DNA of 64,000 nucleotides from Bradyrhizobium murdochi (lineage in GTDB: Bacteria > Pseudomonadota > Alphaproteobacteria > Rhizobiales > Xanthobacteraceae), in NCBI RefSeq assembly GCF_000472965.1, contig NZ_AXAU01000015.1:1-64000 (forward strand), written 5' to 3'. Below, in pieces: positions 16,023-63,234 of this stretch; position 1 is the first letter of the stretch; each line of letters opens with the position of its first letter. The notes below the pieces were generated by a model that was not told the DNA's origin, searched no databases, and saw only the letters and a list, made by a program, of their open reading frames with translations. The translations under genes were made by a program, and so were the position numbers.

Positions 16023-16423
16023 GGCCCACTCGCCAATTCATGTCGCAACCACCCCATTATAGCGGCTTCGAACCCTGCCGCGAGGAATAACTGCAAGTCT
16101 AGGATGAGGCCGAATCTCGCAACGGTCTTTGCAGTCGAGCGTGACCGCGATCCCGGCACTTACCCGCGGACAAACGCGATTTCGGCTGCGGACCCCAGGG
16201 CGGACATCCCCGGCGCAGGTCGTTGCCATCGCAACGGACCAAAACAGCCGCTTAGGGTGCTTCTGCGAAGCGCCTCAAGGGCACCCGTGTACTCAGCCCG
16301 AATCTGGATTTGGCGGTGCGCCGCACACGCCGCCGGACCATCCTTGTCGCATCATTGTTTGCCAAGTTCCGGCGTCTTGCTATGATCGAAAAAAATCAAT
16401 CAAGAGCGATAGGGAGAAGCGTC
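16023..16423. other. Intergenic region between divergent NDUFA9-like and tctC genes
   Basis: These 401 bases lie between two divergently transcribed genes, so both promoters should be here. I saw no coding frame with a ribosome site and no known repeat. The only clear site is the AGGGAGAAG ribosome site at 16411-16419 that sets the tctC start. Confidence 0.5.
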
Positions 16424-17377
16424 ATGAGGACCGTGCTCCGTATTTTGGCGGCGACAGCAGCCTTGGCCGCGATGGCCATGCCGGCCGCGGCTCAAAACTA
16501 TCCTGAGCGCCCGATCAAGATGATCGTGCCGTGGGCGGCAGGCGGCGATACGGACAACATCTTCCGCCCATTTGCGCCGCTTCTACAGAAGCACATCGGC
16601 CAGCCAATCGTGATCGCCAACGTCACGGGCGCCTCCGGCACCGTCGGGGCGCGCGAAGCCAAAGGCTCGCCGCCGGACGGCTATACGCTTTATGCGGTGC
16701 ACGACTACATCCACCTTGTGCACTATGCCGGCGTCACAGACGTCAAGTACAGCGACTTCGAGCCGATCTGCCTGCTCTCTGCGACGCCATCGGTCCTGAC
16801 GGCGAGCCCCAAGACGCCCTGGAAGAGCTGGGCCGAGCTTGCCGAGGACGCCAAGAAGCGTCCGGGCCAGATCACCGTGGGGGCTACCCTCGGATCGACC
16901 AGCCACATCTTCCCGGCGCTCATCGAGAAGGCGGCCGGCGTCAAGTTCAAATACGTCTCCTATGAAGGCCTTGCGCCGCGCATGAATGCCATTCTCGGCG
17001 GCCATGTCGATTTGACGGATTCCAACCTGACACAGAAGGGCAAGGTCGATGCCGGGCAGCTCAAGTTTCTTGCCATTGCTGCCGAGAAGCGCGATCCCGA
17101 AGCCCCTGACGTGCCGACGTTGAAGGAGCTCGGCATGGACATCGTCTACGCGGTTTTGCGCGGCCTGATCGTACCGAAGGGCACGCCGGCCGCGGTGCGC
17201 GCCAAGCTGGACGAGGCCTGCGGAAAAGCCGCCAAGGAGCCGGAGTTCGCGGACGCAATGAAGAAGCAAGGCACGCGCGTCTCCTATCTCAACGCCGCCG
17301 AATACGGTCCATTCCTCGACAAGCTCGACCGCGAGAGCAAGGTGATCATGACCGAGCTCGGTCTTGCCAAGCAATGA
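16424..17377 (+). CDS. tctC: Tripartite tricarboxylate transporter binding protein TctC
   Basis: This 317-residue periplasmic receptor has a signal peptide at 1-24 (VLRILAATAALAAMAMPAAA). The mature start, QNYPERPIKMIVPWAAGG, is the hallmark of the Bug/TctC family, in which the loop after IVPW binds a carboxylate. GASGTVGA near residue 65 is the second ligand-carboxylate loop, and PPDGYTL is conserved. ATG at 16424 is supported by AGGGAGAAG and the signal peptide. It overlaps tctB by four bases. The ligand is a carboxylic acid; which one cannot be read from the sequence. Confidence 0.92.
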   Translation: MRTVLRILAATAALAAMAMPAAAQNYPERPIKMIVPWAAGGDTDNIFRPFAPLLQKHIGQPIVIANVTGASGTVGAREAKGSPPDGYTLYAVHDYIHLVHYAGVTDVKYSDFEPICLLSATPSVLTASPKTPWKSWAELAEDAKKRPGQITVGATLGSTSHIFPALIEKAAGVKFKYVSYEGLAPRMNAILGGHVDLTDSNLTQKGKVDAGQLKFLAIAAEKRDPEAPDVPTLKELGMDIVYAVLRGLIVPKGTPAAVRAKLDEACGKAAKEPEFADAMKKQGTRVSYLNAAEYGPFLDKLDRESKVIMTELGLAKQ

Positions 17378-17856
17378 GACTTGGCCGCGATAGCCTTGCC
17401 GGATTGATCTTCCTCGCGGTCAGTCTGGCTCTGCTCGTGCAATCGTTTGGACTTCCGCAACTGCCGCTGGTGCCGGTCGGTCCCGGCTTCTATCCGCGCA
17501 TCGTTCTGATCTTCATGGCCGTGACCAGCGCGGCGCTGATCGCACAGGATCTGCTCGCGCGGCGCGCTGAGCCGGCCGACGTCCCTGCTCCAGCGCAGCC
17601 GCAACCGGCCTATGGCCTAGTCGCGCTCGCCTTCGTCATCGTTGCGCTCTACTTGGTGGTTCTGCCTCTGCTCGGCTATCGCATCGCGACCGTCCTGTTC
17701 GTCGCCGGACTCCAGGCGACGCTCGAAAGGCCTGCGACCTGGCGGCAATGGGCGATCCTCGCGGCAATAGCGATTGCTACGTCGGCTGTAACGTACCTGG
17801 TCTTCGAGCGGTATCTCACGGTGCTGCTTCCTCGCGGTAGCTGGACAAACTGGTAG
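17374..17856 (+). CDS. tctB: Tripartite tricarboxylate transporter small membrane subunit TctB
   Basis: This 160-residue protein has four hydrophobic segments, the size and topology of TctB. The N-terminus (AGLIFLAVSLALLVQSF then GPGFYPRIVLIFMAV) matches the family, with the PGFYP motif preserved. Its start overlaps the tctC stop (ATGA). It works with TctA as the sodium- or proton-driven carrier. A Pro/Ala-rich loop links TM2 to TM3. Confidence 0.9.
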   Translation: MRLGRDSLAGLIFLAVSLALLVQSFGLPQLPLVPVGPGFYPRIVLIFMAVTSAALIAQDLLARRAEPADVPAPAQPQPAYGLVALAFVIVALYLVVLPLLGYRIATVLFVAGLQATLERPATWRQWAILAAIAIATSAVTYLVFERYLTVLLPRGSWTNW

Positions 17857-17859
17857 GCC

Positions 17860-19383
17860 ATGTTCGAGCTTTTGGGACATGGGCTGCTGACGGTGTTGCA
17901 GTGGAATTATCTCGTTCCGCTATTCGCCGGCACGCTCATTGGCATCATCGGCGGCGCGCTGCCGGGCGTCACCATCACGATGACGATCATCGTCATCCTG
18001 CCGTTCACCTATGGCCTCGATCCCTTGCAGGGGCTGGCCGCGATGACCGGCGTCTATGTCGGCGGCTCTGCCGGCGGCCTGGTTACCGCGTGTCTGCTTG
18101 GAATTCCGGGCACGCCCTCGGCGATCGCCACGACCTTCGATGGCTTTCCGATGGCGCGGGGTGGCGCGCCGGGCCGGGCGATCTGGCTCGGCGTGTGGTC
18201 GTCGTTGTTCGGCGGGCTGCTCGGCGGTCTTTTCCTGATCCTGGTAACCGGACCGCTCGCGGCCATCGCACTTCAGTTCGGACCGTGGGAGTATTTCTCG
18301 CTGTTCGTGCTGGCCATGGCAATGGTGGCCGGCCTGGCCGAGTCCTCATTCATCAAGGGCCTGCTGTCGACCGCCATTGGCCTCCTGATCACCGTCATCG
18401 GCACGGATCCGATCGGCAGCGTGCCGCGCTTCACCTTCGGGTCCGAGTTCATCAGCGGCGGCTTCCCGTTCCTGCCGGTGCTGATCGGGATCTTTGCGTT
18501 CGCGCAGATCATGTCTGACATCGAGAAGGCAGCAGTTCCAAAGACGCCGGAGGCCGTTCTGACCGCGCAGCCGAGTCTGCGGGTTTCCCACCTCAAGGTG
18601 ATCGGCGAAATCCTCAGCCGTCCGTTCCTGCTCTTGTGGTCGACGATCGTCGGTATCCTGATCGGCGTGCTGCCGGCGATCGGCGGCAGCGCTGCCAATA
18701 TGCTGGCCTACGACCAGGCGAAGAAGTTCTCGCGCCACCCCGAGCGTTTCGGCACAGGCGTCCCCGAGGGCATCATCGCTTCTGAGTCCTCCAACAATGC
18801 CAATGTCGGCGGCTCGCTGGTGACCATCATGGCGTTCGGCATCCCCGGCGACGCCGTGACCGCCGTCATGCTGGGCGCCATGACGATCCACGGCATCCAG
18901 TCGGGGCCGCTGTTCGTCTCGCAGCAACCCGCCCTCGCCTACGGTATCTACGCCGCATACATTTTGGCACACCTGCTGATGGTGCTGATCCTGGCCGCGG
19001 GCGCGCTATTCATGCTTCAGATCACCCGGGTCAGGCTCGCGGTGCTTGCGCCGGTCGTGCTGGTGCTTTGCGTAATCGGTGCTTACGCGCTCAACAACAC
19101 GATGCAGAGCGTCTATGTCCTGCTCATCTTTGGTGTGTTCGGCTATGCGCTGGTGAAGGGCGGATTTCCGCTGGCTCCGCTGATCCTCGGCCTCATCCTC
19201 GGCGACCAAATCGAGATCAACCTTATTCGGGCGATCATGACGGACGACAACCCGCTGCTGTTCTTCACGCGGCCGATTTCCGGCGCGTTACTGTTCTGTG
19301 CGGGGCTATCGGTCGCCCTGGCTGTCTGGCAGCACATGCGTCATCGGGCGCGAACCGCGCGTGAGGAAGCGCCCGACTTCTGA
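17860..19383 (+). CDS. tctA: Tripartite tricarboxylate transporter large membrane subunit TctA
   Basis: This 507-residue permease has about 12 membrane segments. Family landmarks are GIIGGALPGVTITMTIIVIL near the N-terminus, GIPGTPSAIATTFDG around residue 85, and the repeat-related block PEGIIASESSNNA then GIPGDAVTAVMLGA around residues 300-335. The inverted duplicate PG-containing motifs are both intact, so the carrier should work. It begins three bases after tctB, in one operon tctCBA. No regulator is encoded directly upstream; an AraC-type gene lies convergently just downstream. Confidence 0.93.
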   Translation: MFELLGHGLLTVLQWNYLVPLFAGTLIGIIGGALPGVTITMTIIVILPFTYGLDPLQGLAAMTGVYVGGSAGGLVTACLLGIPGTPSAIATTFDGFPMARGGAPGRAIWLGVWSSLFGGLLGGLFLILVTGPLAAIALQFGPWEYFSLFVLAMAMVAGLAESSFIKGLLSTAIGLLITVIGTDPIGSVPRFTFGSEFISGGFPFLPVLIGIFAFAQIMSDIEKAAVPKTPEAVLTAQPSLRVSHLKVIGEILSRPFLLLWSTIVGILIGVLPAIGGSAANMLAYDQAKKFSRHPERFGTGVPEGIIASESSNNANVGGSLVTIMAFGIPGDAVTAVMLGAMTIHGIQSGPLFVSQQPALAYGIYAAYILAHLLMVLILAAGALFMLQITRVRLAVLAPVVLVLCVIGAYALNNTMQSVYVLLIFGVFGYALVKGGFPLAPLILGLILGDQIEINLIRAIMTDDNPLLFFTRPISGALLFCAGLSVALAVWQHMRHRARTAREEAPDF

Positions 19384-19405: not shown

Positions 19406-20230
19406 TCATGCAGCCCCACTACCAACTACGAGGCTTAGATTGCGTCTATATTGAAGAGGACTAACTCTCATTTCCGAGCGAAACATGAATATGAATGCTG
19501 ACGCCGAGGAATAGCCAAGGCGTAGTGCGATCTCCGTGATCGGAAGGTCGCTGCCCAACATTTCGATCGCCTTGAAAAGGCGCAGACGCTGACGCCAGGT
19601 GCGCAAGCTCATGCCGACTTCGCTCTCAAAGCGTCGAGTCAGCGTTCGCGGCGACATCCCGATCTCAAGCCCCCACTTGTCACTGTGACGGGGATTGGCG
19701 GGATCGGCATAGAGGCTCTCACAAAGTGCAAGCAAGGCCGGGTGTGTAGGCCATGGCAGGGCTCCCGAGATAGGCGTTGCCCGTCGCAACTGCTCGAGGA
19801 TGAGTGCGGTAACGCGGTCGGCGTAGTGACGATCTTCTTGTTTGAGCGATGCGGCCTCTATGATGAGTGCCCGCAGAAGCGTGGATACATGAATGACCGC
19901 CGTCCCGGAGGTCATTCCTTGGCTTGCGTCATCGGCTATCCAGAGGCTTCGGAATTCCGCGCCCATGAGGGAGCCGACCGAGTGTTTGGTACCGGGCGGC
20001 AGCCAGACGGCCTGTTCTGGGGAAATGACGAGACTTCTTCCGTCAGCGTTGACGGTGAGCGCGCCGGAAATCGCGTAGACGAGTTGATTCCAGGTGTGGC
20101 TGTGCTCGGCAAAGTAGCTTCTCGCAGGAAGCGACTGGACCCGGACGATCAGAGGCTCAGGTGATCCAAGACCTCGCGGGCTATCGAGTGGCTTCCAGCC
20201 AACGTTTTTGCGCGATTTGTGACGTTTCAT
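19406..20230 (-). CDS. AraC-family regulator with cupin sensor domain
   Basis: This 274-residue regulator has an N-terminal cupin-like sensor: HSHTWNQLVYAISGALTVN, then WLPPGTKHSV with the second metal/ligand His. The C-terminal AraC DNA-binding domain has two helix-turn-helix units: GMSPRTLTRRFESEVGMSL and then ITEIALRLGYSSASAFIFMF. Its layout fits regulators that respond to small organic molecules. It is divergent from the MFS gene with ~120 bases between them, a typical arrangement for controlling the 20351-24624 operon; control of tctCBA is also possible. ATG at 20230 is used; a GTG at 20263 would add 11 residues. Neither has a strong ribosome site. Confidence 0.85.
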   Translation of the reverse strand: MKRHKSRKNVGWKPLDSPRGLGSPEPLIVRVQSLPARSYFAEHSHTWNQLVYAISGALTVNADGRSLVISPEQAVWLPPGTKHSVGSLMGAEFRSLWIADDASQGMTSGTAVIHVSTLLRALIIEAASLKQEDRHYADRVTALILEQLRRATPISGALPWPTHPALLALCESLYADPANPRHSDKWGLEIGMSPRTLTRRFESEVGMSLRTWRQRLRLFKAIEMLGSDLPITEIALRLGYSSASAFIFMFRSEMRVSPLQYRRNLSLVVGSGAA

Positions 20231-20350
20231 CGATATAAATTGGCATTTTGTAGAGGGAAACACCAGTGCTTTGTTCTTAGGCTAGCCGGATCTACGACGA
20301 TGCCGAGCTTGATCGCGGGACATCTCATTGACTGGCGGAGCAGTCGCAGC

Positions 20351-21571
20351 ATGAACTTCAATTTTCCCGCGCTCAACCATGAGGCGGCGACAGCCGTTCG
20401 CCGAGAGCGCAGCAATGTCGTAAGGCTTGCCGTCGCTCAGGCTCTCGCGGGCGCCAATTCTACGGTCGTCTACGCAATCGGAGCTGTCGTTGGCGACATA
20501 CTGGCGCCCAGCAGGACGCTGGCGACGCTGCCGGTTTCCGTTTTTGTCGTCGGCATGGCCCTCTGCACCCTACCGGCGGGCGCCGTCGCCGAACGGTATG
20601 GCCGGCGTACGACTTTCCTGCTCGGTGCGGGCAGCGGCATCCTCGCGGGCTTGATCGCGTTTCTTGCGGTCCTGCAGGCCTCGTTTCCGCTGTTCTGCAT
20701 GTCGACCTTTTTCGGGGGCGCCTACGCCGCCGTGGTGCTCTCCTTCCGCTTTGCCGCTGCCGATTGCGCGGCGCCGGAACGGCGGCCCCGTGCTCTTTCC
20801 GCTGTGATGGCCGGCGGTGTATTCGCTGGTGTGATAGGTCCGCAACTTGTGACGCACACCATGAACCTGTGGGGGCCTTACCTCTTCGCTGCGACGTTTA
20901 TTGGCCAAGCGGCGCTTGCGGCTTTCTCCGCAGTCATCCTGGCGGGCGTTCAGCTTCCTCGGCCAACTGCAACTGAGCGAGGCGCCGGAAGGCCGCTCGC
21001 TGTGATCGCCTACCAGCCGCGTTTCATCCTGGCAGTGATCTGTGGGGTCGTTTCCTACCTGCTCATGAATTTCATCATGACGGCAGCCCCGCTGGCGATG
21101 AAATTCTGCGGCTTGTCCCAGGAGTCAGCCAATCTTGGTCTGCAGTGGCACGCCATCGCGATGTACACTCCTAGCTTTTGGACAGGACGCCTTATCACGC
21201 GATTCGGTTCATCCGCTGTCGTCGCCGTCGGGCTGGCGCTCATCGCTGGCTCATCGTCGGTTGGTCTGCTCGGCATCGACGTCGGGCATTTCTGGGTGAC
21301 GCTGATCTTGCTCGGGATCGGCTGGAATTTCGGCTTCATTGGCGCTTCGGCCATGGTTCTGGAATGCCATCGTCCCGAGGAAAAGGCACGGGTCCAATCG
21401 CTTAATGACTTCGTCGTCTTCGGCACGATGACGGTCGGTTCATTCCTCTCCGGCGGGCTGCTGTCGTCCTTCGGCTGGTCGACCGTCTTGGTTCTGTCGT
21501 TCGTACCACTACTGATCGCGTTGTTGGCGCTAATTGGGTTTTCGTGTCGAGGCGACCTACAGCGAACCTGA
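20351..21571 (+). CDS. Major facilitator superfamily transporter
   Basis: This 406-residue protein has about 12 membrane segments. The MFS loop 2-3 motif is seen in GAVAERYGRRTTFLLGAGSG, and a long central loop with PERRPRALS splits the halves. It probably exports or imports a small molecule by proton coupling. ATG at 20351 is chosen because GCGGAG lies ten bases upstream and the protein starts just before the first membrane span; in-frame ATG at 20300 is possible. It is the first gene of an apparent operon with the GrdB-like, TPR and cupin genes. Substrate unknown. Confidence 0.85.
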   Translation: MNFNFPALNHEAATAVRRERSNVVRLAVAQALAGANSTVVYAIGAVVGDILAPSRTLATLPVSVFVVGMALCTLPAGAVAERYGRRTTFLLGAGSGILAGLIAFLAVLQASFPLFCMSTFFGGAYAAVVLSFRFAAADCAAPERRPRALSAVMAGGVFAGVIGPQLVTHTMNLWGPYLFAATFIGQAALAAFSAVILAGVQLPRPTATERGAGRPLAVIAYQPRFILAVICGVVSYLLMNFIMTAAPLAMKFCGLSQESANLGLQWHAIAMYTPSFWTGRLITRFGSSAVVAVGLALIAGSSSVGLLGIDVGHFWVTLILLGIGWNFGFIGASAMVLECHRPEEKARVQSLNDFVVFGTMTVGSFLSGGLLSSFGWSTVLVLSFVPLLIALLALIGFSCRGDLQRT

Positions 21572-21653
21572 CCAGCACGGCGCTTGCCGCCTTGCCAATA
21601 CAAAGTGTTCAAGCCAGCCGGCTTGCGCAAGAAACGTTTCGAGGAGATGCGAC

Positions 21654-22529
21654 ATGAACGAAGCAGACGCCCCAGTGCAATATATGGAGCGAACGCGCCG
21701 CTATTACCGTGCTCTCGGTTACGCCAACGACTATGTCTGGGCGAGCTTTGATGATGTCCCCTTCACCCGGCCGGCCAAGCCACTGTCGGAGCTGCGCATC
21801 GCACTGATTACCACGGCTAGTCCGCTGGACTTTGATGGGGTGAAGCGGGTGTGGTCAGGCGTCGTTTCGCCGCCGCCGGAGAAGCTGTTTACCGACAATG
21901 TTGCGTGGGAGAAGGAATCGACCCACACCAATGACCGGGCCAGCTTTTTGCCGATAGAAGCCGCTTTCGAATTAGTCGCCGAGGGAGTCATCGCCGGACT
22001 GACCCCGCGTTTTCACGGCGCGCCAACAGAATACAGCCAGCGAAAAACGGTGACCAAGGATGCGCCCGAAATCCTGGCGCGCGTTCGACAGGATGGAGCG
22101 GATGCTGCAATCCTTTGCCCCCTTTGCCCCGTTTGTCACCAGACCGTGAGCCTGGTGGCGCGTCACCTCGAAGCGAATGGAATTCCGACCGTCATTGTCG
22201 GTTCGGCGCTGGACGTTGTCGAGCATTGCGGCGTTCCACGGTTCTACTTCACGGATTTTCCGCTGGGCAATCCGTGCGGGCATCCTTGGCGACCCGACAT
22301 GCAGCGTAAGATCGTACGCGAGGCGCTCGCCCTTTTTGAGACATCGAAGGTGCCGCGAACAACTGTCAAGGCGCCATTTGCCTGGAACGAAGAAGGAGCG
22401 GTCTGGCGGGCACGATACGGGCGAGTCACCCCCGCAGATCGAGAGCGACTGCTCAAACTAGGCGATGAGCGGCGCCGTAAGCAGGCGCAATCCAAGCAGG
22501 CGGCTGCCAATAGAGAGTTATCCGAATGA
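21654..22529 (+). CDS. Glycine/sarcosine/betaine reductase selenoprotein B-like protein (Cys form)
   Basis: This 291-residue protein resembles the GrdB family, the substrate-specific subunit of anaerobic glycine/sarcosine/betaine reductases. The N-terminal part has RIALITTASP and the C-terminal region has FYFTDFPLGNPCGHPWRPDMQ. The key motif CPLCPVC (Cys155, Cys158, Cys161) has the spacing of the Sec-x-x-Cys-x-x-Cys motif of GrdB, with Cys155 at the selenocysteine place. No in-frame TGA is present, so no selenium is needed. No GrdA or GrdC partner is encoded here. ATG at 21654 follows GAGGAG. Its stop overlaps the TPR gene by four bases. The substrate and chemistry are unknown; a redox or reductive C-N cleavage role is inference. 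Confidence 0.75.
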   Translation: MNEADAPVQYMERTRRYYRALGYANDYVWASFDDVPFTRPAKPLSELRIALITTASPLDFDGVKRVWSGVVSPPPEKLFTDNVAWEKESTHTNDRASFLPIEAAFELVAEGVIAGLTPRFHGAPTEYSQRKTVTKDAPEILARVRQDGADAAILCPLCPVCHQTVSLVARHLEANGIPTVIVGSALDVVEHCGVPRFYFTDFPLGNPCGHPWRPDMQRKIVREALALFETSKVPRTTVKAPFAWNEEGAVWRARYGRVTPADRERLLKLGDERRRKQAQSKQAAANRELSE

Positions 22530-23836
22530 CTGCGAACTCGATGAGAAATTTCGTGAGCGCTTTTGAAGACCGATACGGGAACACGTTGAGCACAAGCTCC
22601 AGCAATGCCCGAGACGCTTATATCGTCGGCGTTGACAAGCTGTTATCGGCTGGCTGGGGCATTGATCAAGCTTTCCGTGAGGCGATCGCGGCCGATGAAA
22701 ATTTTGCCCTTGCGCACATCGCGCTTGCGCGGAGCTTGCAGATTCTCGGTCGGGGCCACGAAGCAAAAGATCCGCTCGAACGCGCGTTGGCACTCGCCCC
22801 AGCTACGACAGCGCGCGAGCAAAGTCATATTGCGATCTTTGCCAAAATCCTGGGCGGTCGGGGCGCTGAAGCTGTTTCGATGATAACCGAACACATCAAG
22901 GACTGGCCCCGCGACGCCATGGTGCTGGCGCCGGCCACCGGTGTTTTCGGTCTGATCGGCTTCTCCGGTAAATCCGGGCGCGAGGTCGAGCAGCTAGCAC
23001 TGCTGGAGCCGCTGGCCACGCACTATGACGATGACTGGTGGTTTCGAACGGTGCTCGCGTTTGCCGAAATCGAACTGCATAAGCTCGATAGTGGTTTCAA
23101 GAATATCGAGGCCGCACTTCGCGGCTTTCCTCGCAATGCACACGCTGCGCATATCAAGGCTCACATGTTCTACGAGAAGGGGCAGCGCGAAGAAGGGCTC
23201 GCCTATCTCGACCAATGGAATGCCGCCTACCCGCGAGAGGGACAACTGCATTGCCATATAAGCTGGCATCTTGCCCTCTGGTCGTTGGAGACCGGCAGGC
23301 GCGATCAGGCATGGAAGATCTATCGCGAAGCGCTGCATCCGGGCGGTTCGTGGGGACCGCAGATAAATGTCCTCACCGACTGCGCTTCGTTCCTTGCACG
23401 GGCCGAGATGGCAGGTGAGCCGCGATCTCCGGAATTGTGGGAAGAAATCAGCCAGTATGCGGCGAAATGGTTTCCCAATTCAGGGATCATCTTTGCCGAT
23501 ATACACAGCGCACTTGCCTTTGCAATGGCTGGCGATGCCGAGGCACTTGCGAGGATGATCGAGAACCCAAAGGGTCCCGCTGCGGACATTCTGGTACCGA
23601 TTGCGCGCGGCTTCGACGGTTTAGCGAGGGGTGACTGGACACGGGTCGTCGATGAACTAGATCCGGTTTTGCACGCCCATGAAAGGGTCGGAGGTAGTCG
23701 CGCGCAGCGCGACCTCCTGGAATATTCCGTGACCTGCGCCTTGCTGCGCAGTGGTCGCGCCGACGAAGCGCGGCGCCTGATAACGTTGCGACGACCTCAG
23801 AATGCAGCGAGCGGACTTCCGCTCGCCGGAATCTAG
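22526..23836 (+). CDS. TTC38-like tetratricopeptide repeat protein
   Basis: This 436-residue cytoplasmic protein is built of helical repeats resembling the TTC38 family. Recognisable repeat units include FREAIAADENFALAHIALAR at ~52-71 and units ending EAALRGFPRNAHAAHI (~195-210) and YLDQWNAAYP (~232). No signal peptide or catalytic motif is visible. It is translationally coupled (ATGA overlap) to the GrdB-like gene, so the two products are probably made in fixed ratio and may interact. TTC38-like proteins are reported beside metabolic enzymes in many proteobacteria without known function. Confidence 0.75.
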   Translation: MTANSMRNFVSAFEDRYGNTLSTSSSNARDAYIVGVDKLLSAGWGIDQAFREAIAADENFALAHIALARSLQILGRGHEAKDPLERALALAPATTAREQSHIAIFAKILGGRGAEAVSMITEHIKDWPRDAMVLAPATGVFGLIGFSGKSGREVEQLALLEPLATHYDDDWWFRTVLAFAEIELHKLDSGFKNIEAALRGFPRNAHAAHIKAHMFYEKGQREEGLAYLDQWNAAYPREGQLHCHISWHLALWSLETGRRDQAWKIYREALHPGGSWGPQINVLTDCASFLARAEMAGEPRSPELWEEISQYAAKWFPNSGIIFADIHSALAFAMAGDAEALARMIENPKGPAADILVPIARGFDGLARGDWTRVVDELDPVLHAHERVGGSRAQRDLLEYSVTCALLRSGRADEARRLITLRRPQNAASGLPLAGI

Positions 23837-23931
23837 AGCGGACCCACTACAGCCAGGCGCGAGCAACGGCGAAAGAGCCGAGGTAGTGGAGCGCCAAACC
23901 TTGTATAGTGCTACGATGAGGGAGAGCAGCG

Positions 23932-24624
23932 ATGCGCATTAACGATGACCTATCAAAGCCAGTTTTCGTTCATGCCGCGAAAATGGACTGGGTAGCCAGT
24001 CCGTCGGCCGGCGTTGATCGGCGCATGCTGTTCCGCATTGGCGGGGAAGTGGCGCGCGCCACATCGATTGTGCGTTATGCTCCCGGCAGCATCTTCCCGC
24101 GTCATACGCATAGCGGTGGAGAGGAAATTGTCGTCCTGGAAGGCACCTTTCAGGACGAGCATGGCGATTACCCCGCAGGCACCTATTTTCGTAATCCTCC
24201 GGGCACGTCGCACGTCCCCGCCTCGAAGGATGGCTGCACCATTTTCGTCAGGCTATGGCAGTTCCGTGATGCGGACCAGATTCAGATCGTGCGTCGACCA
24301 GGTCAGGGAGAACAGGTCGAGCCGCGGCCTGGCGCAATGAAAGCAACCGTCCTGTTCGAGGATGGGCATGAGGAGGTGCGTCTGGAACAATGGGCGCCAA
24401 GTGAAACCATCAGGGTTGCGAACACGCGCGGGTTGGAGTTTTTCGTTCTATCGGGGGAACTGATAATCGGGAACGAAGCGCTGGAGCCGCAGAGCTGGGG
24501 CCGCCTGCCCGCCGGCGTCGACCTGAACGTGAGAGTTGGTTCGCAAGGTGCGAAAATCTGGACGAAAGAGGCGCCGCTGCTGCATCCGGATGTCAGTCGG
24601 CTGCCCGGCAATCCAGCAGCCTAA
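23932..24624 (+). CDS. ChrR-like double cupin protein
   Basis: This 230-residue protein consists of two small cupin domains. The first carries PRHTHSGGEEIVVLEG (His58, His60, Glu64) and His94 in PPGTSH, a complete metal-binding set. The second (~150-215) has a degenerate cupin barrel without the His cluster. This resembles the ChrR cupin-like family, named after the anti-sigma factor that senses singlet oxygen, but no N-terminal zinc anti-sigma domain is present, so an enzyme or small-molecule binder is more likely. It lies 95 bases after the TPR gene on the same strand and is plausibly part of that operon. Confidence 0.8.
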   Translation: MRINDDLSKPVFVHAAKMDWVASPSAGVDRRMLFRIGGEVARATSIVRYAPGSIFPRHTHSGGEEIVVLEGTFQDEHGDYPAGTYFRNPPGTSHVPASKDGCTIFVRLWQFRDADQIQIVRRPGQGEQVEPRPGAMKATVLFEDGHEEVRLEQWAPSETIRVANTRGLEFFVLSGELIIGNEALEPQSWGRLPAGVDLNVRVGSQGAKIWTKEAPLLHPDVSRLPGNPAA

Positions 24625-24676: not shown

Positions 24677-26602
24677 CTAGATCGTCACCTGCGTTCCCAC
24701 CTCCACCACGCGCCCGGTCGGGATCTGGAAATAGTCGGTGGCGTCGTTGGCGGCGCGGCTGAGGCGGATGAACAGCAAATCCTGCCAGCGCGGCATACCG
24801 GAATGGGCGGCGGGTTTGAGCGCGCGGCGGGACAGGAAGAACGATGTCGACATGATGTCGAACTGCCAGCCGAGCTTGCGGGCGATCGCCAGCGTCTTTG
24901 GCACGTTGGGCGATTCCATGAAGCCGAACCGCAGCGTCACCCGGGAGAAGGTCTCGCTGAGCTGCTCCATCCGCACCCGCTCGGCATCGTCGATCCGTGG
25001 GCTGGGCGCGGTCTCGATGGTGAGGATGACATTCTTCTCATGCAGCACCTTGTAGTGCTTCAGGCTGTGCATCAGCGCCGTCGGCGCGCATTCGGGGTCG
25101 GAGGTCAGGAACACGGCCGTGCCGGGGACCCGTTGCGGCGGACGCTTCTCCAACATCGCGACCAGTTCGGCTAGCGGGAATTCCAGCTTGCGCGATTTCT
25201 CGAACAGCAGCCGGCTGCCGCGGCGCCACGTGTACATCAGGAGCATCACGATGCCGCCGAGCGCGAGCGGCACCCAGCCGCCCTCGAGCACTTTCAACAG
25301 ATTGGCGGCGAGGAAGGTGATGTCGAGAAACAGGAACGGGGCGATCAGGGCGGCGGCCGCGATCGGCGACCATTTCCAGACGCGCCAGACCACGACAAAA
25401 CCCATCATGGCCGTCACCACCATCGTGCCGGTCACGGAGATTCCGTAAGCCGAGGCCAGCCCGCTCGACGAGCGGAACAGGACCACCAGCAAAATCACCG
25501 CAACGAACAGCAGCAGGTTGATGCGCGGGATATAGATCTGACCGGAATGCGCTTCCGAGGTATGGCGGATTTCGAACCGCGGCAGCAGCCCGAGCTGGAT
25601 CGCCTGGCGCGTCAGCGAGTAGGCGCCGGTGATGACGGCCTGGCTCGCGATCACGGTCGCCGCTGTCGCAAGCGCCACCATCGGGATCAAGGCCCAGTCC
25701 GGGAACATCAGGAAGAACGGGTTTTCAATCGCCTTGGGGTCGGCGATCAACAGCGCGCCCTGCCCCAGATAATTGATCGCCAGCGACGGCAGCACGATGA
25801 AGAGCCAGGCGGTCTGGATCGGCCGCTTACCGAAATGGCCGAGATCGGCATAGAGCGCTTCCGCTCCGGTGACGGCAAGAAACACCGCACCGAGCGTGAT
25901 GAAACCGATCATGCCGTGATGAAGCATGAAGGACACGGCGTAGAGTGGATTGAGTGCCTGCAGCACTTCGGGATGCCGCATGATCTGCGGCACGGCTGCC
26001 ACCGCAATGACAGCGAACCAGACGCACATCACCGGTCCGAAGAACGCGGCGACGCGCGCGGTGCCGCGGGATTGCACGGCAAACAGCGCCACCAGAATGA
26101 TCACCGTCAGCGGCACGACATAGTGCTCGAAGGTGACGGTGACGAGCTTGATGCCTTCGATCGCCGACAACACCGACAGCGCCGGCGTAAGAACCGCGTC
26201 GCCGTAAAACAGCGCACCGGAGATGATGCCGAGCAGCACGATCGCCGCCCCGCCCTTGCCGACCGCGCGCTGCGCCAGTGCCATCAGTGCCAGCGTTCCG
26301 CCCTCGCCATTGTTGTCGGCGCGCAAGAGGATGACGACATATTTCAGCGTCACCACCACGATCAATGCCCACAGGATCAGCGAGAGCACGCCGAGCACGG
26401 CCTGTGGCGTGGCAGCGGTCGAGGCCTCGCTGGCGGCGACCACCGCCTCGCGCAGCGCGTACAAGGGGCTGGTGCCGATGTCGCCATAGACGACGCCGAT
26501 GCTGCCGAGCATCAGCGCCTTGAAGGTGGCGGTGGAATGCGCTTCGCCATGACCATTGGCCGCGGGCGTTTCCGCCGCGGGGATCGCAAACTGGACTGAC
26601 AT
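24677..26602 (-). CDS. kup: KUP-family potassium transporter (copy 1)
   Basis: This 641-residue low-affinity potassium uptake protein of the KUP/HAK/KT family has about 12 membrane segments followed by a cytoplasmic C-terminal domain of ~170 residues. The family block [20 protein letters not shown] lies at ~32-51, with [17 protein letters not shown] near 95 and [17 protein letters not shown] near 135. It is the downstream member of a tandem pair; the C-terminal end ([17 protein letters not shown]) is identical to that of the second copy, showing duplication. The two are ~157 bases apart. Confidence 0.93.
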
Positions 26603-26759
26603 GAGATGGGGGGCCTCGGTTCCTTACCGCACTGCACAAGTGCAGAAGCGCAGCCCTATACTCCCGGGACGAATGGACCGGTTAGCCGGAATCCAGGCCT
26701 CCGGTATGCGCCTTCTGCATAGATGGCGGCAACGGCTGCGGCCAGTTTTCCATCTGAAA

Positions 26760-28661
26760 TCAGATGGTTACTTGGGTACCCACTTCCACGACCCGCCCGG
26801 TCGGGATCTGGAAGTAGTCGGTGGCATCGTTCGCCGACCGGCTCATCGCGATGAACATATGATCCTGCCAGAGCGGCATGCCCGACTGCGCCGAGGGCTT
26901 GAGCGACCGCCGCGACACGAAGAACGAGGTCGCCATGATGTCGAACTGCCAGCCGAGCTTGCGCGCGATCACCAGCGCCTTGGGCACGTTCGGGGATTCC
27001 ATGAAGCCGAACCGCAGCCGGACGGTAGAAAACTTCTCGCTGATGGTTTCCATCTTGACGCGCTCTGAAACGTCGACCCGCGGCGTTTGTGCGGTTTCGA
27101 TGGTCAAGATCACGTTGTGCTCGTGCAGCACCTTGTTGTGCTTGAGATTGTGCATCAGCGCGGTCGGCACAAAGCTCGGATCCGAGGTCAGAAACACCGC
27201 CGTGCCCTTGACGATGTGGGGCGGTCGCTTTTCCAGGCTCTTGATCAGGTCCATCAAGGGCACCTCGATGCGCCGCGTCTTGGCAGTCAGGATCGCGGCG
27301 CCGCGGCGCCAGGTCCAGATCATCACTGCGACCGCAGCGCCGAACAATAGCGGCACCCAGGCGCCTTCCAACAGCTTCAAGAGGTTTGCGGCAAAGAAGC
27401 TCATGTCTACGACAACGAAAGGCAGGATCACGGCCGCCGCGGTTGCGGCGCGCCAGTTCCACAACTTCCAGATCACGACAAAGCCCATGATGCCGTCGAC
27501 CACCATGGTCGTGGAGACGGCAATGCCATAGGCCGAGGCCAGACCGCTGGAGGTGCGGAACAGCAGCACCAGCAGCACGACCCCGATCAGCAGCATCCGG
27601 TTGACCCGCGGCAGGTAGATCTGGCCGGCATGGGTTTCGGAGGTGTAACGGACCTCGAAGCGCGGCAACAGACCGAGCTGCACCGCCTGGCGGATCAGGG
27701 AAAAGGCGCCCGTGATCACCGCCTGACTCGCGATCACGGTGGCGGCGGTCGCCAGCACCACGAGCGGGATCAACAACATCTCCGGGACCATCCGGTAGAA
27801 TGAGTTTTCGATCGCCGACGGATCGGACAAGACCAACGCGCCCTGTCCGAAATAATTGATCAGCAACGACGGCAACACAAAAAAGAGCCATGCGGCCCGG
27901 ATCGGCTTGCGCCCGAAATGCCCGAGGTCGGCGTAAAGCGCTTCGCCGCCGGTCACCGCCAGAAACACCAGGCCCATCGTCACCAGACCGATGACGCCAT
28001 GGGACAGCATGAACTGGATCCCATACCAGGGATTGATCGCGTAGAGCACCGTGGGATCGTCAGAGATATGGACGAGGCCCATCACCGCCAGCGTCAAGAA
28101 CCAGACCACCGTGACCGGCCCGAAGGCCGAGGCGACGCGCGCGGTGCCGCTGCTCTGCACCGAGAACAGCACGACGAGGATGAAGATCGTCAGCGGCACC
28201 ACATAATGTTCGAGCGCGGGCGTGACCAGCTTGAGACCTTCGACTGCCGACAAAACCGAAATCGCCGGCGTGATCATGGAATCCCCGATGAACATCGACG
28301 CGCCGACCACGCCGAGCGCCAATAGCGGCCAGCTCCGCCGGCCCAGCGCCCGCTGACCCAACGCCATCAGGGACAGCGTACCGCCCTCCCCATTGTTGTC
28401 GGCGCGCAACAACAGCAGCACATATTTAGCTGTCACCACGATCAACAGTGACCACAGAATCAGCGAGAGCACGCCAAGTACAATGATGCGCGATACCGGC
28501 TGGCCTTCGGCCGCGTGTGTGGCAGCCTCGCGGAACGCATACAGTGGAGAGGTGCCGATATCGCCGAACACCACGCCGATACTGCCCAGCGTCAGGGCCC
28601 AAAAGCCGGAGGTGGCATGCCCATCATGGGCTGCTTCGGTAGATGTGACGCTGACAGTCAT
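26760..28661 (-). CDS. kup: KUP-family potassium transporter (copy 2)
   Basis: This 633-residue paralogue of the adjacent potassium transporter has the same layout and motifs: [20 protein letters not shown] at ~26-45, [17 protein letters not shown], and [17 protein letters not shown]. The GDxxxTPA block differs at several positions between copies (AVL against SMI), and the N-terminal tails are unrelated, so the copies have diverged. Both are full length with no break. A tandem kup pair in rhizobia often serves growth at low osmolarity or low pH. Confidence 0.93.
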
Positions 28662-60885: not shown

Positions 60886-61974
<1,089 letters not shown>

Positions 61975-62076
61975 ATTTCATCCCTTTGGTTGTGCCGATC
62001 AGCCTTCGTGTCGAGGCTTGGAACCGAGCATGAAGCATCCGGCCGCCAAATTCCATAAGCAATTGGATGCAAACGC

Positions 62077-62114
62077 AAAAAAGCCCGACCTTCCTGCGAA
62101 GGCCGGGCTTTCTT
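62077..62114 (-). terminator. Rho-independent terminator of dctP paralogue 2
   Basis: Stem AAGCCCGACCTTC / GAAGGCCGGGCTT (about 62081-62093 and 62098-62110, one A-C mismatch) with loop CTGC. On the minus strand it is followed by a run of Ts (TTTTTTGCG). It lies directly after the dctP paralogue 2 stop and before the paralogue 1 start, so each copy has its own transcript end. Confidence 0.85.
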
Positions 62115-62145
62115 GTAAGCTTTTGGGACAGGTGTGCGGGTCAGA

Positions 62146-63234
<1,089 letters not shown>

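Follow-up and report, generated by a model that had tools for sequence, protein, structure and literature searches.

We examined a 64,000-nucleotide stretch of the Bradyrhizobium murdochi genome (contig NZ_AXAU01000015.1, positions 1 to 64,000; hereafter the window), which lies on contig C6 of the 7.95 Mb source genome (G000), and found that it carries a real, lineage-specific operon built around a relative of the reductase proteins PrdB and GrdB. This relative now has cysteine (Cys) where they have selenocysteine (Sec) and was probably once a selenoprotein itself. The operon gives a known but poorly understood family a new setting, and it is not a new kind of system. It encodes a major facilitator superfamily (MFS) transporter, the GrdB-like protein, a tetratricopeptide repeat (TPR) protein and a cupin protein, and the hairpin listed below resembles a selenocysteine insertion sequence (SECIS).

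19406-20230, minus strand: AraC-type regulator, divergent, with a cupin-type sensor domain and HTH_18 (Pfam); 97-98% identity in two relatives (L069 and L070)
20283-20284, no strand: deletion junction; in relatives 1.88-1.9 kb with soxC and a c-type cytochrome gene stands here, absent from the window
20351-21571, plus strand: MFS transporter (Pfam MFS_1)
21654-22529, plus strand: GrdB/PrdB-like protein, 291 amino acids, ATG start, with Cys158-Pro-Val-Cys161-His-Gln
22125-22160, plus strand: Cys158 codon TGC, then an apparently decayed SECIS-like hairpin with 6 of 7 pairs, the break being AGC for AGT
22526-23836, plus strand: TPR protein, 436 amino acids, with only sub-threshold TPR matches (Pfam)
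23932-24624, plus strand: double cupin protein with an N-terminal ChrR cupin-like domain, PF12973 (Cupin_7)

A preliminary description of the window had placed the five genes correctly, with the AraC-type gene divergent on the minus strand and the other four on the plus strand. The four-base overlap (ATGA) it gave for the GrdB-like and TPR genes was confirmed, as was the CPLCPVC motif at Cys155/158/161. The MFS and GrdB-like genes are 82 bases apart, and 95 bases lie between the TPR and cupin genes. The preliminary description called the TPR protein TTC38-like; in Pfam it shows only sub-threshold TPR repeats.

The GrdB-like protein was compared with the profiles of the known families. Its best NCBIfam match is PrdB (TIGR04483), at 76.1 bits (E value 2.6e-21, cut-off 300). 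GrdB models scored lower, with 28.8 bits for TIGR01917 (cut-off 602) and 19.3 bits for Pfam GRDB PF07355 (cut-off 22). By sequence, then, it is a relative of PrdB and GrdB that falls outside both families by cut-off, so the GrdB-like identity proposed earlier stands as homology and not as membership. The homology covers most of PrdB, with the UxxCH/CxxCH motif in register, but the window protein is longer (291 versus about 240 amino acids), has extra N- and C-terminal segments and Cys for Sec, and no PrdA partner was found. Its homology to GrdB lies in that protein's C-terminal half, Sec-x-x-Cys site included; the GrdB N-terminal half and third Cys are lacking.

To place the Sec site we aligned eleven proteins of the window's clade (the window's own among them) and the core paralogue described below with five proteins from clostridial records: three PrdB, one GrdB that passes its cut-off and one GrdB-type paralogue that does not. 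Cys158 aligns with the Sec of both PrdB (UGTCHR) and GrdB (UGTCTRC), Cys161 corresponds to the motif's second Cys, Thr164 takes the place of GrdB's third Cys, and Cys155 stands opposite Thr or Ala. An alignment of 55 sequences, counting Sec as Cys, shows no variation at C158, P159, C161, H162 and Q163, and C155 is not even near-invariant; in a larger set, position 155 is Cys in 28 of 77 rows, the other residues there being S, A, T, V, F, I and Y. The clade that the window protein shares with Sec forms has the invariant motif [U/C]P[V/I]CHQ. The preliminary description had put the Sec place at Cys155, with a three-position Sec-x-x-Cys-x-x-Cys spacing. Since the Sec of PrdB and GrdB aligns with Cys158 and C155 is not conserved, that register was off by three residues, and the third position of the spacing falls on Thr164. 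The alignment with GrdB and PrdB that it had called for thus places the Sec site within the motif, at CPVC, with Cys158 in register instead of Cys155. Cys155 as the Sec place is ruled out by the register alignment, the 55-sequence conservation and the codon survey that follows.

For this survey we collected 83 loci, comprising 76 from a scan of genome contigs, the window and six taken earlier. Two without the motif (L153, L158) and three duplicates (L083, L085 and L114, of L070, L072 and L073) were dropped, leaving 78 that are distinct and motif-bearing. Of the 77 rows counted, 62 have TGA at the Cys158 site, 10 have TGC and 5 have TGT, and none has a second in-frame stop. The last locus, L096, was checked separately and also has TGA, giving an in-frame TGA in 63 of the 78 loci, with the window counted among the 78. 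The elongation factor SelB was over cut-off in both TGA-bearing genomes tested (G396 and G655), the first of which has four family members with TGA at this site in all four. The proteobacterial PrdB-like family is therefore mostly a selenoprotein family. The idea that the relatives' TGAs are errors was rejected in view of their single conserved position, SelB and the hairpin described next. No SelB was over cut-off in the six genomes of the genus Bradyrhizobium searched, G000 included, which supports the earlier reading of the window protein as GrdB/PrdB-type in its Cys form. A tRNA search on L073 and L074 gave no genes. One locus, L144, comes from a metagenome-assembled genome (MAG) whose title names Bordetella parapertussis, a label that looks doubtful because the protein falls among those of uncultured Burkholderiales MAGs.

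A 7-pair hairpin lies immediately 3′ of the TGA, with the loop CGTGA in 58 of the 62 Sec rows. The hairpin is complete, with seven pairs, in 57 of the 62 Sec rows and in none of the 15 Cys rows, and one pair is G-C in 31 Sec rows and A-T in the other 31. Shuffling synonymous codons between rows left a mean of 42 and a maximum of 48 full hairpins out of 62, a comparison that does not keep kinship and so yields no probability, and sliding the 3′ arm made pairing fall from 99% to no more than 37%. The window retains 6 of the 7 pairs, and the substitution that breaks it (AGC for AGT) is synonymous, both codons giving Ser. Remnants of SECIS-like structures downstream of Cys codons have been described for other selenoproteins (PMC1794560). 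The 15 Cys rows include the frameshifted L152, which has the lowest pair count among them. This locus belongs to Dankookia rubra, which has an intact Cys-form gene (L118) as well as this second, frameshifted Cys-form copy.

We rooted a maximum-likelihood tree of 86 proteins at its midpoint; the partial or frameshifted L111, L147 and L152 were also left out of it. In this tree the window protein falls in an all-Cys clade of 11 (support 100/99), eight of them Bradyrhizobium-type. This clade adjoins a Sec clade that contains Vineibacter (joint branch 98/91), amid more Sec forms. The nesting and the hairpin remnant suggest that the window protein is an ex-selenoprotein in which Sec was replaced by Cys and the hairpin then decayed.

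The gene block around it recurs within the genus. A family member is present in 144 of 146 Bradyrhizobium genomes, and the window type, at 81-100% identity, in five of the 146; among the matches listed, nearly all other full-length ones belong to a core paralogue with 41-48% identity, of which the window's genome has its own copy on contig C18. This copy (G000:C18:45014-45895; L001, L075) has the motif VPNCPVCHQ. The full block was found at 6 of the 78 loci, all six Bradyrhizobium-type: the window, L069 (G109), L070 (G119, Bradyrhizobium sp. LMTR 3), L071 (G086), L072 (G057, B. huanghuaihaiense) and L084 (B. pachyrhizi). Within maps of 6.5 kb, the cluster to which the cupin protein belongs occurs only at these six loci and their two duplicates. 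The GrdB-like, TPR, MFS and cupin genes are under purifying selection, with ratios of nonsynonymous to synonymous substitution rates (dN/dS) of 0.11-0.39 versus relatives. Because the block recurs in five other genus-type genomes and shows these ratios, it is more than a chance arrangement. L072 has an alcohol dehydrogenase-like gene between the TPR and cupin genes and L071 a shorter piece of that gene, while two Bradyrhizobium MAGs (L086 and L087) carry the GrdB-like gene in a different setting. The tctABC genes at 16310-19383 were considered as part of the operon and ruled out, because the genes upstream of the AraC-type gene differ in L071, L072 and L084.

In four of the operons (L069-L072), soxC and a c-type cytochrome gene stand between the AraC-type and MFS genes. 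The operon described earlier is real, with the qualification that the window has a shorter version than these four relatives. Their SoxC proteins score 604-622 bits against a curated cut-off of 420. The cytochrome, which we presume to be SoxD-like, had no NCBIfam match at 1e-5. Window positions 20101-20283 and 20283-20500 correspond to two blocks that lie 1.88 kb apart in L069 (13328/11447) and 1.895 kb apart in L070 (6512/8408); a clean deletion of 1.88-1.9 kb at 20283 removed the soxC-cytochrome pair from the window. As a by-product, a fused GTG reading frame runs from 20219 through the AraC-MFS intergenic region into the MFS gene. The pair is also missing from B. pachyrhizi (L084), where the alignment crosses the window's junction (75% identity with gaps), no SoxC match is found on that contig and the junction is unlike the window's. 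Two separate losses are the simplest explanation, as the window is sister to L069 in the tree and L084 is sister to L072.

The soxC-cytochrome pair has counterparts at the main sox locus of the window's genome (G000:C46, L218), where soxC again stands with a cytochrome gene and SoxZ and SoxA were also found. The SoxC and cytochrome of L071 are 52% and 55% identical to that pair, and an MFS gene 56.5% identical to the operon's lies about 3 kb from soxC there, so that operon MFS, SoxC and cytochrome all have paralogues (52-57%) at the main locus. The four operons resemble the SoxCD sulfane/sulfite dehydrogenase in having SoxC over cut-off and a cytochrome 55% identical to the main-locus one, but they show no further recognised sox gene, and the window operon lacks both soxC and the cytochrome gene.

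Outside Bradyrhizobium, the GrdB-like and TPR genes are paired in Vineibacter terrae (L093). There a Sec-form GrdB-like gene is followed four bases on by a TPR gene with a likely GTG start, whose product is 70.7% identical over 423 amino acids to the window's TPR protein; a second TPR protein in the window's own genome is merely 38-39% identical to it. The proposed pairing therefore recurs, and in a Sec-form setting, but direct adjacency was seen at only 7 of the 78 distinct loci (six Bradyrhizobium-type and Vineibacter), several contigs ending close by. At L110 a TPR gene of 44% identity lies about 3 kb upstream, and at L088, a Cys form at a contig edge, an upstream open reading frame of 144 amino acids looks TPR-like by eye and gave no match to the window's TPR protein at 1e-5. 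A genome-wide search, for which 47 of the 76 loci were put forward and which covered 45 genomes, found a TPR relative at E 1e-40 in 26. In seven Reyranella-type genomes the TPR orthologue (61-63%) lies away from any GrdB-like gene, and 18 TPR neighbourhoods in other genomes gave no match (1e-8) to the operon's other genes, soxC, the cytochrome or the core GrdB-like gene, apart from TctC-like genes and a weak alcohol dehydrogenase. In several of the Reyranella-type genomes (L188-L194), the TPR orthologue adjoins a 2-oxoglutarate-Fe(II) (2OG-Fe(II)) oxygenase gene and, by eye, a TauD-like gene. There is a weak cross-link, as 2OG-Fe(II) oxygenases stand near the GrdB-like gene in two Bradyrhizobium MAGs and near the TPR gene in Reyranella-type genomes, with 27-29% identity.

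The preliminary description had envisaged a system conserved across Proteobacteria, an idea it expected to fail if homologues had unrelated neighbours. Outside Bradyrhizobium this is what we found, as the full block stays within the six Bradyrhizobium-type loci and neighbours elsewhere mostly differ. Mostly by eye, these include resistance-nodulation-division (RND) efflux genes, glycerol-3-phosphate genes with a 2OG-Fe oxygenase, TctC-type receptors, a metallophosphoesterase, and nitroreductase-like and metallo-β-lactamase (MBL)-fold-like genes. Neighbour genes were called with a simple codon-position heuristic, so single neighbours may be wrong, and Sec genes are split at the TGA.

What the protein does was approached through its possible partners and predicted structure. 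Clostridial amino-acid reductase chemistry uses a pyruvoyl group, as the title of a work cited in PMC13188914 also states. The pyruvoyl partner GrdE/PrdA (PF09338) had no match in seven genomes, G000 included, while A. noterae and Terrisporobacter records served as positive controls. The best GrdA score in G000 was 12.2 bits against a cut-off of 22, in a search that had no GrdA-bearing genome as control. Since PF09338 is missing, this chemistry seems unavailable, which favours a stand-alone thiol-redox enzyme acting through CPVC. A CxxC redox pair usually stands at the start of a helix. The structure model is an alpha/beta fold (pLDDT 93, pTM 0.92) with Cys158 just ahead of helix 159-174. VIA-align matched it with LacI- and Rossmann-type proteins (Z up to 8.9, root-mean-square deviation 4.0 over 146 residues), a likeness that may reflect only a common arrangement. 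A search of PDB sequences with the protein gave no matches up to E 10.

We lean, somewhat beyond an even chance, towards a stand-alone CPVC thiol-redox enzyme of a Sec/Cys family, working in Bradyrhizobium in an operon that most likely handles a sulfur-containing compound. Cys158 would attack the substrate from the helix start, Cys161 would resolve the adduct to leave a Cys158-Cys161 disulfide, and a cellular reductant such as thioredoxin or glutathione could restore the pair, the enzyme needing neither a pyruvoyl nor a GrdA partner. In a few Bradyrhizobium the gene would have been recruited into a putatively AraC-controlled operon with SoxC, the cytochrome, the MFS transporter, the TPR protein and the cupin protein. 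The sulfur compound would be handled there, with its sulfite or sulfane sulfur oxidised in the periplasm; in the window's strain the soxC-cytochrome pair has been deleted. What favours a sulfur compound is that SoxC, the cytochrome and the MFS transporter occur together, as three proteins with relatives at the main sox locus.

Several observations weigh against this proposal. Only four of the six operons have soxC, which is absent from those of the window and B. pachyrhizi, so that either it is dispensable to the operon's function or the function of those two operons has shifted, and another soxC is retained in the window's genome; the two losses weaken the sulfur-compound part in particular, which we infer from gene context. 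Outside Bradyrhizobium the mixed neighbours (glycerol-phosphate, CoA, efflux, hydrolase and other genes) are not sulfur genes. There is no solved relative, and the best Foldseek hit of the model has E 0.012, with none at 0.001. A Cys at position 155 does occur in those 28 of the 77 rows. Finally, with a midpoint root and nine of the 11 core paralogues in that group being Cys forms, the Sec-to-Cys direction is itself inferred and leans on the nesting and the hairpin remnant.

The change of neighbours from locus to locus would also suit a protein with a general role in thiol redox or electrophile detoxification (peroxidase-, disulfide- or dehalogenase-like) that moves among neighbourhoods, the operon having no dedicated pathway meaning. 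At seven loci the GrdB-like gene follows a small gene of cluster c23 that looks AhpD-type by eye, which points the same way. We regard this as a serious alternative of lower probability, as it leaves aside the purifying selection on the Bradyrhizobium block and the recurrence of the GrdB-TPR pair in Vineibacter. A more specific role, unlikely in our view, is action on coenzyme A (CoA) thioesters. Attack of a selenol or thiol on an alpha carbon is what is proposed for PrdB, and by analogy the protein might attack the alpha carbon of an acyl-CoA and remove a substituent. In some genomes of the genus, and also in G655, a gene that by eye is a CaiB/BaiF-type CoA-transferase follows the core paralogue (43% identical) at a distance of 39-240 nt; in G655 (L078) the paralogue is a Sec form, and the transferase, 56% identical, follows at 98 nt. 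Such a gene was found in 20 of 65 rows, with one more at 5.1 kb and two loci counted twice, but not in the other 44, though most flanks span only 1.5 kb. The window operon has no CoA enzyme, and paralogues may differ in substrate.

Similarly improbable is a two-part, pyruvoyl-free reductase in which the GrdB-like and TPR proteins would together cleave the C-S bond of an organosulfur compound in aerobes, as a Sec pair in Vineibacter and a Cys pair in Bradyrhizobium; SoxCD would then oxidise the sulfur set free. Homology to PrdB (E 2.6e-21) and, to a lesser degree, to GrdB might even suggest a working glycine/betaine/proline-type reductase with Cys in place of Sec, which we consider very improbable. 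The two clostridial control records matched PF09338 and none of the seven genomes did, GrdA stayed below cut-off (again with no positive control), and the third Cys and N-terminal half of GrdB are absent. Membership in the glycine, betaine and proline reductases was rejected because the search turned up no pyruvoyl partner.

The preliminary description had ranked the block as a candidate for an undescribed system. However, UxxC selenoproteins called PrdB were reported in 2005 and 2008 (PMC1088965, PMC2398784), and from the accessible parts of these papers we infer that they and the window's relatives are one family. Among the known selenoprotein families of the Sargasso Sea set, PrdB (UxxC) ranked third in abundance, with 42 genes (PMC1088965), and the Global Ocean Sampling data gave 235 Sec and 110 Cys sequences filed as pfam07355 (PMC2398784). 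Both sets share the UxxC motif and the mix of Sec and Cys forms with the window's relatives, which include marine MAGs, but the accessible text describes no operon with SoxC, TPR and cupin genes. In the portions available, a later source lists 131 proline reductase selenoproteins (PMC5029168), and two others from 2022 and 2026 (PMC9312934, PMC13188914) list PrdB and GrdB and give no other function. A literature search with most subscription journals outside its scope returned nothing on the family in Bradyrhizobium, on selenoprotein B with soxC or TTC38, or on cryo-electron microscopy of PrdB. As far as these sources go, PrdB-like UxxC proteins are common in marine metagenomes and their function is named only by analogy with D-proline reductase. 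The natural Sec/Cys pair in Vineibacter and Bradyrhizobium, each member adjoining an orthologous TPR gene, offers a handle on the family's role outside amino-acid fermentation; its Cys member is found in genomes without over-cut-off SelB, with soxC alongside in four of the six operons.

Two other features of the window were noted. A tandem pair of Kup-type potassium transporter genes (24677-28661) adjoins the operon, with a mutual identity of 65.5%, a figure taken from the corresponding pair in L069. At 60886-63234, two adjacent similar genes for tripartite ATP-independent periplasmic (TRAP)-type solute receptors (by eye) lie next to TRAP-type membrane genes.

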